Of a stretch of DNA of 33,227 nt, positions 24,496 through 30,884 are shown one piece after another. The DNA is taken from contig WHUC01000008.1 in NCBI GenBank assembly GCA_009377435.1, positions 1-33,227 of the forward strand. The letters are read 5' to 3'. Within the stretch, counting starts at the first letter, position 1; each line of letters starts with the position of its first letter. Under the pieces are notes generated by a model. The model was given only the letters and a program-made list of their open reading frames with translations, did not search any database and was not told where the DNA came from. Both the position numbers and the translations under genes were made by a program. The DNA comes from Acidimicrobiia bacterium. GTDB lineage: Bacteria > Actinomycetota > Acidimicrobiia > Spongiisociales > ZC4RG35.

Positions 24496-24515
24496 ATGCG
24501 CATATGCGTATAATG
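24496..24515 (+). promoter_or_regulatory. ArgR operator overlapping the argC -10
   Basis: The 20-bp sequence ATGCGCATATGCGTATAATG holds an imperfect dyad (ATGCGCAT/ATGCGTAT) and a perfect TATAAT (24509-24514). The TATAAT ends exactly 6 nt before the argC ATG. An identical 20-mer precedes argR. Repressor bound here would cover the -10. Confidence 0.8.
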
Positions 24516-24520
24516 TGGTG

Positions 24521-25540
24521 ATGTTCAACGCAGCCGTGCTCGGTGCCTCCGGTTACGCCGGTGGCGAGATGGTGCGGATCCTCGATCGTCATCCCGGGAT
24601 CGCCGTCAGCCATCTCGGCGCCCACAGTCGCGCCGGGGAGACACTGAGTGCCGTGCAGCCCCACCTCACCGACGGTGGACGAACACTCGGGGACAATGAT
24701 CCCGATCACATCCCCGACGACGTCGATGTCGCCTTTCTCGCCCTGCCGCACGGATCGTCCACCGAAACCGGTATCGCCCTGCGGGATCGGGGGATAACGG
24801 TGGTCGACCTCGGATCAGACTTCCGTCTCGACAGCAACGAGCGGTACCGACAGGCCTACGGGTCGGACCACCCCCGACCCGATCACCTCCCGGAGTGGAG
24901 ATACGGCCTCCCCGAGCTCTTCGATGTGACCGAATCCCGTCAGGTGGCCGCCCCCGGCTGCTATCCGACGGCGGTGCTCCTCGCCATCGCCCCCCTCGCC
25001 GCCGCCGGACTGGTCGATCCGTCGGCCATTGTCGCCGACTGTCTCTCCGGGGTGTCGGGGGCGGGACGCGCCCTCCGTGAGGATCTGGCGTATGGGGCTG
25101 TGGACGAGGGGGTGCGGGCATATGCGGTGACCACCCACCGGCATCGTCCCGAGATCGAGATGGCACTCGAGGCCTACGGGATCGACCATCCCCGTGTCGT
25201 CTTCACCCCCCACCTCGTCCCCATGCTCCGCGGCGAGTTGGCGACGGTCACCGCCCCCACCGAGACGGATGTCTCCACCGCCCGGGATGCCCTCGAGGAG
25301 GTGTACTCGGACAAGGTCTTCGTGTCCGTCATCGATGGACCACCCCAGACCCGTTGGGTCGTCGGTTCCAATCGCACCCTCATCGCGGTGTGGGTGGACG
25401 AGTGGACCGGTCGTCTCATAGTCCAGTCGGCCATCGACAACCTCGTCAAGGGGGCGGCCGGACAGGCGGTGCAGTGCGCCAACCTCATGCTGGGCCTCGA
25501 CGAGACCGCCGGTCTCTCCCTCGACGGGTGGATGCCCTAG
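24521..25540 (+). CDS. argC: N-acetyl-gamma-glutamyl-phosphate reductase
   Basis: ArgC reduces N-acetylglutamyl phosphate to the semialdehyde with NADPH, the third step to ornithine. The 339 residues show the Rossmann GASGYAGGEMVRIL (8-21), LGSDFRLD, the catalytic cysteine in VAAPGCYPTAVLL, and HRHRPEIE with the conserved histidine. The ATG at 24521 has no ribosome-binding site and lies 6 nt after a perfect -10, so translation is probably leaderless; the longer frame upstream overlaps pcnA and the promoter. It is the first gene of the arg cluster, and the next gene is argB rather than argJ. Confidence 0.95.
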   Translation: MFNAAVLGASGYAGGEMVRILDRHPGIAVSHLGAHSRAGETLSAVQPHLTDGGRTLGDNDPDHIPDDVDVAFLALPHGSSTETGIALRDRGITVVDLGSDFRLDSNERYRQAYGSDHPRPDHLPEWRYGLPELFDVTESRQVAAPGCYPTAVLLAIAPLAAAGLVDPSAIVADCLSGVSGAGRALREDLAYGAVDEGVRAYAVTTHRHRPEIEMALEAYGIDHPRVVFTPHLVPMLRGELATVTAPTETDVSTARDALEEVYSDKVFVSVIDGPPQTRWVVGSNRTLIAVWVDEWTGRLIVQSAIDNLVKGAAGQAVQCANLMLGLDETAGLSLDGWMP

Positions 25541-25570
25541 TGGTCTCCCACACCCCAGCACGGTCCGTTC

Positions 25571-25591
25571 TGGCGCGCTATTCGTGCGCCA
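25571..25591 (+). repeat. hairpin in the argC-argB gap
   Basis: TGGCGCGC (25571-25578) pairs with GTGCGCCA (25584-25591), 8 bp including one G-T pair, around the loop TATTC. It lies in the 91-nt argC-argB gap where argJ is expected in many actinobacteria. No T-run follows, so it is more likely an mRNA processing or stability element than a terminator. Confidence 0.45.
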
Positions 25592-25631
25592 TGGAGCCGG
25601 AATCGGGCGCGAGAACGGTGGTGATCCGCCC

Positions 25632-26534
25632 ATGAATGTCGGCCACGGGCAACCCGATCCCATCAAGACCCGGATCGCCAACTCCATGGGCAAGGCGAGG
25701 ATCCTCATGGAGGCGTTGCCCTACATCCGCGAGTTCCGCGGACGTGTCGTGGTGATCAAGTACGGTGGATCGACGATGGTCGATCCCCGGTTCAGGGAGA
25801 GCTTCGCCGGCGACATCACCTTGTTGTCGACGGTGGGTATCCACCCCGTGATCGTCCACGGTGGCGGGCCACAGATTTCAGCGGCGCTGGAGGCCGAGGG
25901 GATCGTGACGTCATGGGTCGATGGGTTGCGGGTCACCGATGAGCGCGTGATCGAATTGGTGCAAAGGGTCCTGATCGGCGAGGTCAACGTGGATATCGTC
26001 CGCATGCTCGGTGGACAGGGTGCCCGCGCCATCGGGATTTCGGGGATCGACGCCGGGTTGTTCACCGCCCGCCCCCTGGACAGTCGTCTCGGTTACGTCG
26101 GGGAGATAACCGATGTGCACGGCGACCTCATCAGGAGACTTCTCGCCGAAGGGTTGGTGCCGGTGGTGGCCCCGCTTGCCCGGGGTGGGGACGGTGGGGT
26201 GTACAACTGCAACGCCGATACTGCCGCTGCGGCTCTCGCCAAGGCGATATCCGCCCAGAAGCTGGTCTATCTGACCGATGTCGACGGGGTCTACCGCGAT
26301 CCGGAGGACCGATCCTCGCTGATCTCGAGGATGGACCTCGCCGATCTCCGTGAGTTGGTGCCGTCCATCGGCGGGGGCATGCGGCCCAAGCTGCAATCGG
26401 TGATAGACGCCCTCGAGGGTGGGGTGAGACATGCCCACATCCTCGATGGACGGATCCAACACTCCATCCTCCTCGAGATCTTCACCCCGGAGGGCATCGG
26501 GACGATGTTCGAGAGCGAGACGGCGACCTCATGA
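25632..26534 (+). CDS. argB: acetylglutamate kinase
   Basis: ArgB phosphorylates N-acetylglutamate. The 300 residues show VVIKYGGSTM (usually KYGGNAM), VHGGGPQI, VNVDIVRMLGGQGARAIGISG, NCNADTAAAALA and LTDVDGVY, all typical of the amino-acid kinase family. An N-terminal helix of about 25 residues ahead of KARILMEALPYI is the feature of arginine-inhibited hexameric enzymes, so feedback by arginine is likely. The ATG at 25632 is chosen over an upstream in-frame start because family homology begins just after it. It ends in an ATGA overlap with argD. Confidence 0.95.
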   Translation: MNVGHGQPDPIKTRIANSMGKARILMEALPYIREFRGRVVVIKYGGSTMVDPRFRESFAGDITLLSTVGIHPVIVHGGGPQISAALEAEGIVTSWVDGLRVTDERVIELVQRVLIGEVNVDIVRMLGGQGARAIGISGIDAGLFTARPLDSRLGYVGEITDVHGDLIRRLLAEGLVPVVAPLARGGDGGVYNCNADTAAAALAKAISAQKLVYLTDVDGVYRDPEDRSSLISRMDLADLRELVPSIGGGMRPKLQSVIDALEGGVRHAHILDGRIQHSILLEIFTPEGIGTMFESETATS

Positions 26535-27697
26535 ATGTCATCGAGCGCGAGTCGCATGCTGTGATGCAGACCTACGGGAGGACCCCCGTCGAGTTCGTCT
26601 CCGGGGAGGGTTCCTGGCTCACCGACTCCGAGGGTAAACGCTACCTCGACTGTCTTACCGGTCTCGCCGTCGTCTCGGTTGGTCATGCCAATCCCGCCGT
26701 GGCCAGTGCGGTCGCCGACCAGATGGCCACGCTGGTCCACGTCTCCAATTTCTTCTACACCGAACCGATGGTGGAGCTCGCCGAGCGACTGAACCGTCTC
26801 TCCGGTCTCGACCGGGTGTTCTTCGCCAATTGTGGGGCCACCGCCAACGAGGCCGCCATCAAGTTGGCTCGACGCTGGGGTCAGAGACGACGGGGCACCG
26901 AGTGTCATGAGGTGCTCTCCCTGCTCGATTCCTTCCACGGCCGAACCCTGGCGACCCTGGCCGCCACCGGACAGGAGACCAAACAGGCCGTGTTCCGGCC
27001 GCTTCCCCCCGGGTTCTCCCAGGTGCCCCGGGGTGACATCGAGGCCCTCGAGGCCCGGGTCGGTCCCGGCACCGCCGCGGTGATGATCGAGACCACCCAG
27101 GGTGAGGGCGGGGTGGTACCCCTCGACACGGCATATCTCGCCGAGGTGCGCCGTCTATGTGACGAACGGGAGGTGCTGTTGATCGTGGACGATGTCCAGA
27201 CCGGTGTGGGTAGGACGGGGTCGTGGTTCTCATGGCAGCAACTCGGGTTCGAGCCCGATATCGCCACCACCGCCAAGGCCTTGGCCAACGGGCTTCCTCT
27301 CGGGGTGGCGATGGCCCGGGAGGATGTGGCCACCGCCTTCGAGAAGGGCGACCACGCCACCACCTTCGGTGGGGGGCCGGTGGTATGTCGGGCCGCCCTC
27401 GCCGTTCTCGACGAGATCGAGGGTCGTGATCTGCTCACCAACACGACGGAGCGCTCACAGCAGTTCCGGGATGAACTCACCAGCCTCGATGGCGTGACCG
27501 AGGTCAGGGGCCGGGGGCTGCTACTCGCAGCCGTGCTCGAAACTGATCGGGCATCCGAGGTGGCGGCGCGCTGTCTCGACGAGGGCCTCGTGGTGAACGC
27601 GGTCCAACCCGACGCCATCCGGTTCGCCCCACCCCTCACCATCAGCCCCGACGAGGTGACCACCGCCGTCTCCCGCTTGGGGGCGGCGTTGCGCTGA
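26531..27697 (+). CDS. argD: acetylornithine aminotransferase
   Basis: ArgD is a PLP-dependent class III aminotransferase converting N-acetylglutamate semialdehyde to N-acetylornithine. The 388 residues show FFANCGATANEAAIKLAR (phosphate binding), SFHGRT, IETTQGEGGV, VDDVQTGVGRTG and the PLP lysine in TTAKALANGLPLG. Two motifs differ slightly from the common forms EPIQGEGG and DEVQTG, without loss of key residues. The ATG overlaps the argB stop by 4 nt. Confidence 0.94.
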   Translation: MNVIERESHAVMQTYGRTPVEFVSGEGSWLTDSEGKRYLDCLTGLAVVSVGHANPAVASAVADQMATLVHVSNFFYTEPMVELAERLNRLSGLDRVFFANCGATANEAAIKLARRWGQRRRGTECHEVLSLLDSFHGRTLATLAATGQETKQAVFRPLPPGFSQVPRGDIEALEARVGPGTAAVMIETTQGEGGVVPLDTAYLAEVRRLCDEREVLLIVDDVQTGVGRTGSWFSWQQLGFEPDIATTAKALANGLPLGVAMAREDVATAFEKGDHATTFGGGPVVCRAALAVLDEIEGRDLLTNTTERSQQFRDELTSLDGVTEVRGRGLLLAAVLETDRASEVAARCLDEGLVVNAVQPDAIRFAPPLTISPDEVTTAVSRLGAALR

Positions 27698-27754
27698 TCG
27701 CACGGCAGTTCCGGTTTTCTTGGCCGCGGAACGCGTCAAAACGGATCTGGTTCC

Positions 27755-27774
27755 ATGCGCATATGCGTATAATG
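27755..27774 (+). promoter_or_regulatory. ArgR operator overlapping the argR -10
   Basis: This is the same 20-mer as upstream of argC, with TATAAT at 27768-27773 ending exactly 6 nt before the argR ATG (27780). The segments at the -35 positions, ATCTGG here and ATCCGG at argC, are also alike though not consensus. Autoregulation by ArgR is the simplest reading. Confidence 0.8.
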
Positions 27775-27779
27775 ATGCG

Positions 27780-28217
27780 ATGCCTGCAACCGCCGACCGG
27801 AGACGCGCCATCCGGGCCCTCATCGAGGAACGACCCATAACCAGCCAGTCGGAGCTGGTCGAGCTGCTCGACGGTGTAGGGTTCGGTGTCACCCAGGCCA
27901 CGGTGAGTCGCGATCTCTATGCGCTCGGCGCTGGCAAGGACGGTGACCGGTACGTGTTGGGGGAAGCACCGGACCCCGACGCCGTCACCCGTCATCTCCA
28001 CAGGACGGTGGCCGATTGGGCCCGGGCGATAATCCCGTCGGGCAATCTGATCGTCATCCACACCCCACCCGGTGCCGGCCAGGTGGTGGCAGCCGCCGTC
28101 GACGACGCCGAAATAGATGGCGTCGTCGGCTCCGTGGCCGGTGACGACACCGTCCTGGTGGTGGTCGCCGAGGGGCTGGCGGCTTCCGAGGTCATCGACA
28201 GATTGAGAACGGAGTGA
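27780..28217 (+). CDS. argR: arginine repressor ArgR
   Basis: ArgR is the hexameric arginine-dependent repressor of arginine genes. The 145 residues have an N-terminal winged helix ([31 protein letters not shown], with the DNA-reading SRD) and a C-terminal core (about 75-145) with [35 protein letters not shown]; the paired aspartates match the arginine-binding site. It has its own leaderless promoter inside the cluster, and argG follows 1 nt after its stop. Confidence 0.95.
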
Positions 28218-28218
28218 G

Positions 28219-29421
28219 ATGAAGGTCGTGCTCGCCTACTCGGGTGGATTGGACACCTCGGTCATCCTCGCCTGGATCCGGGAAACCTACGACGCCGAGG
28301 TCGTGGCATACACCGCCGACGTCGGGCAGGGCGATGAGGTCGAGGAGGCCAGGGAGAAGGCGCTGGCGTCGGGTGCCGTCGACGCCGTGGTCGAGGATCT
28401 CCGCTCCGAGTTCGTCGAGAACGCGGTGTTCCCGGCCATCCGGGCGTCGGCCATATACGAGGGGTACTACCTGCTGGGGACCTCCCTGGCCCGCCCCATC
28501 ATCACCAAGGGGATGATGAGGGTGGCCCGCGAGCACGGTGCCGACGCCATCGCCCACGGCGCCACCGGCAAGGGCAACGATCAGGTCCGCTTCGAGCTGT
28601 CGGCGTTCGCCATCGACCCCGAGATCAAGGTGATCGCCCCCTGGCGGGAATGGGATCTGCGAGGCCGGGCCGATTGCGTCGCCTATGCCGAGGCCCGGGG
28701 GATCCCGGTCCCGGTGACGCCGGAGAAGCCCTACTCGATGGACGCCAACCTTCTCCACATCTCCTACGAGGGGGGTGTGCTCGAGGACCCCTGGGTCGCC
28801 CCCAGCCCCGGGATGTTCAAGATGACGGTCGACCCCGAGGACGCTCCCGACGAGCCCGAGCACGTTGTCATCACCTTCGAGGAGGGCAACCCCGTCGCCA
28901 TCAACGGGGAGCCCTTCGCCCCCCGTCATCTCCTGGAAGGGGCCAATGAGATGGCGGGACGTCACGGTGTCGGCCGCATCGATATCGTGGAGAACCGGTT
29001 TGTCGGGATGAAATCTCGTGGCGTGTATGAGACCCCGGGCGGCACCCTCCTCTATCACGCCCACCGCGCCGTCGAGTCGATCACACTCGACCGTGAGGTG
29101 GTCCATCTGCGCGACGAGATGGTGCCCCGTTACGCCGAGATCGTATACAACGGGTTCTGGTTCTCCCCGGAGCGTCAGGCCTTGCAGTCGTTCATGGACT
29201 CCATCCAGAAGCGGGTCAACGGTGAAGCCCGGCTCAAGCTGTACAAGGGGGGTGTCTCCATCGTGGGCCGCCGTTCCGAGAAGCACGGTCTGTACGATCA
29301 GGCGACAGCGACCTTCGAGGAGGACGATGTCTACGACCAGGCCGACGCCGCCGGGTTCATCCGGCTCAACGCCCTCCGTCTTCGAAGGCTTGCCGAAGAG
29401 CTGATCGCCGAAGGTGAATAG
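28219..29421 (+). CDS. argG: argininosuccinate synthase
   Basis: ArgG joins citrulline and aspartate with ATP. The 400 residues begin with the PP-loop AYSGGLDTS (6-14) and contain [39 protein letters not shown], and [22 protein letters not shown], all hallmarks. GGAG lies about 6 nt before the ATG, inside the end of argR, so argR and argG are probably co-transcribed. Its substrate citrulline needs argF, which is not in this window. Confidence 0.97.
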
Positions 29422-29525: not shown

Positions 29526-30884
29526 GTGACCCTGTGGGGCGGCCGGTTCTCCGAGGACCCCGACGACATCCTATGGCGATACACCGTCGATCACAGTGAT
29601 CGTCGTCTCCTCCTCGACGACATCACCGGATCGATGGCCCATGTCACCATGTTGGGTCACACCGGGATCGTCCCCGGCGACGAGGCCGAGACCCTGCGGG
29701 CCGGTCTGGAGAAGATCCGTGACGACGCCCTCTCGGGGAGGTTCCGCTTCAGCGACGGCGACGAGGACGTGCATGCCGCGGTGGAGCGCCACCTGATCGA
29801 GTTGGTCGGTGAGGTCGGTGCCAAACTCCACACCGGTCGCTCCCGCAACGACCAGGTCGCCCTTGATCTCCGTCTCCACATGCGCCGGATGGCGGCGGAC
29901 AGGATCGACCAGATCGCCGGCTACATCGAGACCCTGGCCGACATCGCCGGCGACCATGCCACCACCCCGGTGGCTTCCTACACCCATCTCCAACAGGCCC
30001 AGGTGGTGCCACTCGGTCATCATGTCCTCGCCTACGCCTGGATGGCGATGCGCGACCGTGATCGCTTCATCGACCTGCGACGCCGTCTCTCCGAATCTCC
30101 CTTGGGGGCCAACGCCTCGGGGGGTTCCTCGCTGCCTCTCGACCCGGTGGCGGTGGCCGAGGAGTTGGGGATGGATGCCACGTTCCACAATTCCCTCGAT
30201 GCGGTCGCCTCACGTGACCTCGTCTCCGAGTATGTCTTCTGTGCCGCCTCGACCATGGTGTCCCTCTCCCGTCTCGCCGAGGAGATGACCATGTGGGCGA
30301 GCACCGAGTTCGGGTGGGTGACCTACGCCGACCGCCACACCACGGGGTCATCGGCGCTTCCCCAGAAGAAGAACCCGGACATGGCCGAGCTGGCCCGGGG
30401 TCGCACCGCCGATGCCATCGGGGCCGTGACGACCATCCTCGTCATGCAGAAGGCGCTCCCACTCTCCTACAACCGGGATCTCCAGGGTGACAAGGAACAG
30501 GTCTTTCGGGTCGACGACCTCCTGTCCTCGACCCTCACCGCCCTGTCGGCGATGCTGCGGGGTGCCGAGTTCCACCCCCCGGTCCCCTCGTCGTGGACCA
30601 CCACACTCGACCTCGCCGAGACACTGGTGCGGCGGGGGGTTCCCTTCCGTCACGCCCACGAGGCGGTCGGTGGTCTCGTCGGCCGACTGGTCGCCGCCGG
30701 TCGCGACCTCGCCGACATCACACCCGCCGAACTACTCGACGCCCATGAACGGTTCGAGCGGGACGACGTCGATTTGGTCGACCCGACCACATCGATGGAT
30801 CGTCGCGCCAGCCCCGGTGGCGGCAGCCCAGAAAGTGTGCGGGAGCAGGTGCGTCTCCTCGGGGAACGGCTGGCCCGGGAGTAG
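29526..30884 (+). CDS. argH: argininosuccinate lyase
   Basis: ArgH splits argininosuccinate into arginine and fumarate. The 452 residues start with LWGGRFSEDPDDILWRYTVD, contain KLHTGRSRNDQVALDLR, and carry the superfamily signature GSSALPQKKNPD (usually GSSxMPQKKNPD) that holds the catalytic serine loop. The GTG start has GAGG about 5 nt upstream. It is separated from argG by the two-hairpin repeat, so its expression could differ from that of argG. Confidence 0.96.
   Translation: MTLWGGRFSEDPDDILWRYTVDHSDRRLLLDDITGSMAHVTMLGHTGIVPGDEAETLRAGLEKIRDDALSGRFRFSDGDEDVHAAVERHLIELVGEVGAKLHTGRSRNDQVALDLRLHMRRMAADRIDQIAGYIETLADIAGDHATTPVASYTHLQQAQVVPLGHHVLAYAWMAMRDRDRFIDLRRRLSESPLGANASGGSSLPLDPVAVAEELGMDATFHNSLDAVASRDLVSEYVFCAASTMVSLSRLAEEMTMWASTEFGWVTYADRHTTGSSALPQKKNPDMAELARGRTADAIGAVTTILVMQKALPLSYNRDLQGDKEQVFRVDDLLSSTLTALSAMLRGAEFHPPVPSSWTTTLDLAETLVRRGVPFRHAHEAVGGLVGRLVAAGRDLADITPAELLDAHERFERDDVDLVDPTTSMDRRASPGGGSPESVREQVRLLGERLARE

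Follow-up and report, generated by a model that had tools for sequence, protein, structure and literature searches.

A compact putative ArgR operator embedded in predicted leaderless promoters of argC and argR in an Acidimicrobiia genome

The ARG boxes of Escherichia coli are of the TGAAT-N4-ATTCA type. ArgR operators are composed of two 18-bp boxes placed 2-3 bp apart in E. coli, and of two 18-nt ARG boxes with 2 bp between them in Streptomyces (PMC3293853). The gltBDF genes are also under ArgR control in E. coli (PMC1784095; PMC3293853). Leaderless bacterial genes of the TA-led class, which are common in Actinobacteria, carry a TANNNT element whose first T lies about 12 bp upstream of the start codon (PMC3160421). 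Here, two identical sites before argC and argR of an Acidimicrobiia bacterium were analysed and compared with these systems. The two copies are most likely ArgR operators fused to leaderless sigma-70-type promoters for argCBD and argRGH, a reading drawn from the DNA sequence and its conservation. By descent, the compact site seems to derive from a two-box ARG operator that was shortened by loss of its outer half-sites.

Twin sites in the arginine gene cluster

The window, i.e. the whole stretch of 33,227 nt that was analysed, carries the genes argC-argB-argD-argR-argG-argH in this order as assigned by Pfam. The features are as follows:

24496..24511, + strand: compact putative ArgR operator 1, before argC (ATGCGCAT / ATGCGTAT, two ATNCGNAT units; exact copy of 27755-27770; conserved before argC of relatives)
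24509..24514, + strand: -10 element TATAAT of argC, from the sequence; overlaps the operator by TAT
24521..25540, + strand: argC, predicted leaderless (Pfam Semialdhyde_dh/dhC; N-terminus aligns with homologues)
25632..26534, + strand: argB, start codon provisional (Pfam AA_kinase)
26531..27697, + strand: argD (Pfam Aminotran_3)
27755..27770, + strand: compact putative ArgR operator 2, before argR (same 16-mer as operator 1; conserved)
27768..27773, + strand: -10 element TATAAT of argR; overlaps the operator by TAT
27780..28217, + strand: argR, predicted leaderless and autoregulated, short-wing ArgR (Pfam Arg_repressor and Arg_repressor_C; wing length)
28219..29421, + strand: argG, 1 nt past argR, probably on the argR transcript (Pfam Arginosuc_synth)
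29526..30884, + strand: argH, probably also on the argR transcript (Pfam Lyase_1, ASL_C2)

The first-pass annotation had described an identical 20-mer before argC and argR, in which an imperfect 16-bp dyad runs into TATAAT at a fixed distance of 6 nt from the ATG, and all of this was borne out by the sequence check. Exact copies of ATGCGCATATGCGTATAATG are located at 24496-24515 and 27755-27774; TATAAT occupies bases 14-19, and the 6-nt gap is exact at both genes, with the ATG of argC at 24521 and that of argR at 27780. The dyad in bases 1-16 contains a single mismatched pair (ATGCGCAT and ATGCGTAT), and its last three bases are at the same time the first three of TATAAT. As had also been noted, one copy precedes the regulator gene itself, the product of which is an ArgR by Pfam. 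No further copy of ATGCGCATATGCGTATAATG was found in the window even when up to three mismatches were allowed, and shuffled windows contained none either. The pattern TATAATN{4,8}ATG matches the window only twice, before argC and before argR, against 0.06 expected matches. A -35 consensus was not evident by eye. Since argG starts 1 nt after argR, argCBD and argRGH are most likely the units under control of the two sites.

The genome (2.25 Mb, 88% complete) was scanned for further sites, and only one other 16-mer with up to two mismatches was obtained. This is a triple-unit copy, ATGCGCAT ATGCGCAT ATGCGTAT, on contig C4 before a reading frame of 1462 aa, which from its sequence we take to be gltB, the large subunit of glutamate synthase. 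The gltB site is kept in the genomes G000, G001 and G009 and in one of another family (G096). A single match with three mismatches (contig C14) lies inside a reading frame, looks like chance and was discarded. At L007:6255-6278, three tandem ATNCGNAT units are located between gltB and a divergent gene resembling a nucleotide-binding protein, and at L155 and L043 the site likewise lies between this divergent pair. Weaker related dyads (ATGCGCAGATGCGAAT, ATGCGCATATCCGAAT) were observed at L049, L053 and L159 upstream of similar proteins of about 185 aa, which look DsrE-like.

Sites before argF or argJ had been hoped for as well, and none was found near either OTCase/ATCase gene (best score 3.1). 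The argJ gene was not detected in this genome, including the window gap 25540-25632, or in the other genome of the genus, the two assemblies being 88-93% complete; each of the six other family genomes tested has it. Its apparent absence from the genus leaves the acetyl step of arginine synthesis unaccounted for.

When arginine is plentiful, the ArgR-arginine complex would bind the dyad, cover the -10 element and block RNA polymerase. Repression would then reach arginine synthesis, argR itself and, via the gltB copy, glutamate synthase. When arginine is scarce, transcription would begin at the AUG and ribosomes would initiate without a Shine-Dalgarno (SD) site.

Conservation and leaderless layout in relatives

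Whether the 20-mer recurs before arg genes of related genomes had been named as one point on which the reading would stand or fall. The outcome was in its favour: conserved copies precede argC, argR and gltB, in the family and beyond. Pattern matches in 99 relatives cluster before argR and argC, and the reversed pattern yields almost none. Moreover, de novo expectation-maximisation on the upstream regions of the relatives' argR genes, begun from random positions, recovered the dyad with a log-likelihood of 300 versus 56-66 for shuffles, and 78 of the 116 regions upstream of argC or argR outscored the best shuffled sequence when a matrix built from such regions was applied. These site counts are not independent because the genomes are related. 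In some relatives that encode ArgR, no site could be recognised before argR; several of these have argR close behind argD, perhaps as part of the argC operon.

The fused 18-mer TRCGCATATGCGTATAAT was additionally searched for by exact matching in one genome per species for 84,980 species. It occurred in 26 records. In 11 of these it immediately precedes argC or argR, and in 7 of the 11 the ATG lies exactly 6 nt past TATAAT (2 of the 7 come from relatives already counted). Several of the records are Nanopelagicales-type Actinomycetota. It had been suggested that the operator may be lineage-specific; strict lineage specificity is rejected because the fused 18-mer is also present before argC in Nanopelagicales-type MAGs and before argR in a Gemmatimonadetes MAG. 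One record (L136), titled Bifidobacterium breve and with a genome of about 1.0 Mb, has an argC that closely resembles a Nanopelagicales argC (L131) and is probably mislabelled.

The spacing of promoter and gene points to leaderless transcription. The first T of TATAAT lies exactly 12 bp upstream of the ATG at both argC and argR, as in TA-led genes, and no SD site is found; with the ATG 6 nt past TATAAT, position +1 should fall at or beside the A of the ATG. Among 77 boxed sites of relatives, a -10 element is present at the box end in 72, the gene's own start follows the -10 by 5-10 nt in 50, and the start of a mini-ORF does so in 13 more. Offsets 5-10 of the 72 sites hold 60 ATGs (10 per offset) versus about one per offset elsewhere; 12 ATGs beyond this peak sit at offset 1, and an SD-like run near the start, even a short one, is seen in only 10. 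The ATG peak after the fused -10 thus supports the leaderless reading of the first-pass annotation. Genome-wide, TANNNT-N6-ATG occurs 199 times versus 132 for the reversed pattern, which fits leaderless use, the reversed pattern being a weak control.

In loci from two families (L055-L059, L072, L084, L039-L041 and L096), argC does not start at +1, and an ATG 7-8 nt past the fused -10 opens a mini-ORF of 4-9 codons. Examples are MQETEFK* and MGFS*, and in most the stop codon overlaps the start of argC (ATGA/GTGA). The mini-ORF looks leaderless and translationally coupled to argC.

Compact dyad, two-box operators and the repressor

In sister families and the wider phylum the operator consists of two ARG boxes, approximately TTGCAT-N4-ATGCA-N6-YGTAT-N4-ATGCR, and the -10 falls within the left half of box 2; this two-box form is also present in large Streptomyces-like genomes among the loci of the phylum. 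When aligned on the -10, the 16-mer of the window corresponds to the inner half-sites ATGCG (positions 1-5) and CGTAT (positions 12-16), with CATATG now as the spacer. The inner half-sites are 11 bp apart, and their dyad axis has the same position with respect to the -10 as in the sister families. A palindrome that overlaps the promoter before arginine genes is thus present, as in canonical ARG operators, whereas two YGNAT-N4-ATNCR boxes with centres about 20 bp apart are not: the outer half-sites in the 27 sites of the window's family score 1.19 and 1.30 of 4, which is about chance (1.2), versus 3.0-4.0 of 4 for the left outer half-site in families 2-6. At the right outer position, ATGCG is present at the argR copy (27775-27779) and absent at the argC copy. 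The dyad had been called GC-richer in its core than the E. coli ARG box. Its letters do differ, the half-sites being ATGCG/CGTAT and not TGAAT, but it is not simply a GC-rich ARG box and looks like the inner half of a two-box operator.

All 27 sites of the window's family closely match ATNCGNATATNCGNAT, and they vary mainly at positions 3, 6, 11 and 14. Under the half-site rule YGNAT, which was derived from the sister families after the fact, these are the free positions of the half-sites, and the site is therefore read as two ATNCGNAT units, each composed of ATNCR and YGNAT sharing CG. Contact of ArgR with all four overlapping half-sites is a speculation.

The window's ArgR (27780-28217) contains both ArgR/AhrC domains above cut-off (PF01316, 53.8 bits; PF02863, 74.6 bits), and its best relative in the PDB is 3ere (E 2.5e-19), which we take to be the ArgR of Mycobacterium tuberculosis. 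The distance from the recognition helix to the second wing strand is 9-10 residues in 18 ArgR proteins of the family (one of them being counted as 6 by the crude rule used) versus 12-15 in all others. The wing is thus 3-5 residues shorter than in the sister families, and a short wing is found in this family only. On the tree wing length changes four times, at forks that are weakly supported, which leaves room for a single origin of the short wing or for several. A requirement of the short wing for the compact site was considered and rejected: Nanopelagicales-type genomes combine the compact site with a wing of normal length, so that the short wing goes along with the site in the family but is not needed for it. 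Three genomes of the window's family (G012, G017 and G027) encode an ArgR of another clade, and the compact site is absent from them. The corresponding loci (L009, L015 and L023) carry an ArgR that groups with that of another family or with a second copy, perhaps as a result of transfer or of misplaced contigs.

We tentatively propose, as a reading that could well be wrong, that this Acidimicrobiia family swapped the four-half-site ARG operator for a compact 16-bp dyad of two ATNCGNAT units with overlapping half-sites, read by a short-wing ArgR at a single promoter-embedded site; this half-site geometry is not known to have been described for ArgR proteins. The 16-mer could instead be one ordinary ARG box in a 5-4-5 arrangement (TGCGC-ATAT-GCGTA) with altered half-site letters; in that case, too, the promoter would be leaderless and the operator one for ArgR. 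The spacing fits, the actinobacterial half-site TGCAT also begins with TGC, and single-box operators have been published for Streptomyces (PMC5839063). However, measured from the -10, the dyad is centred on the axis that separates the two boxes in the sister families, the variable columns coincide with the free position of YGNAT/ATNCR half-sites, and TGCGC misfits the half-site consensus of those families, so that a single box appears rather unlikely.

Further from the preferred reading, ordinary leaders would make TATAAT incidental and place the origin of transcription further upstream. The predicted leaderless start is deduced from sequence, the gap of only 34 nt between the upstream gene and argC makes read-through possible, and in a few relatives the start codon lies 20-60 nt past the site. 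This explanation is nevertheless improbable given the ATG peak 6-10 nt past the -10 and the scarcity of SD-like runs in the 72 sites; where argC starts later, the ATG of a mini-ORF is often at +1. Binding of the dyad by a regulator other than ArgR, e.g. a nitrogen or glutamate regulator that also controls gltB, would account for gltB among the targets and for letters unlike those of the E. coli ARG box. We consider it very improbable: the site precedes argR itself, it grades via the sister families into classic TGCAT-N4-ATGCA boxes in the same place, and it is lacking in the family genomes with an ArgR of another clade.

Comparison with known ArgR systems

If confirmed, ATNCGNATATNCGNATANT followed by an ATG 6-10 nt on would serve as a rule for finding arginine regulons and true gene starts in uncultured Actinobacteria, and the site would offer a test case from nature for the way in which half-site spacing is read by ArgR. 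A textbook repressor site would here be shrunk into a leaderless promoter, with operator, -10 element and start codon within less than 30 bp. The operators of argR, argCBH and gltBDF in E. coli likewise overlap the promoter, autoregulate argR and control glutamate synthase, but the ArgR-controlled mRNAs of E. coli are leadered, whereas argC and argR of the window are predicted to be leaderless. The two-box operator of Streptomyces (argC of S. clavuligerus and S. coelicolor) is likewise a palindromic ArgR target before argC in actinobacteria, and at Streptomyces-like loci, too, the -10 is located in box 2, in its left half. Those loci have a leader with an SD-like site, whereas the sites of the window lack the outer half-sites and leave no space for a leader. 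With the TA-led genes of other bacteria, the two genes share the spacing of about 12 bp from TANNNT, with the difference that here the -10 is physically shared with a putative repressor operator. The compact ArgR site is thus best described, as far as sequence comparison can tell, as a probable cut-down version of a familiar bacterial regulatory site, in a fused layout that extends beyond this lineage.
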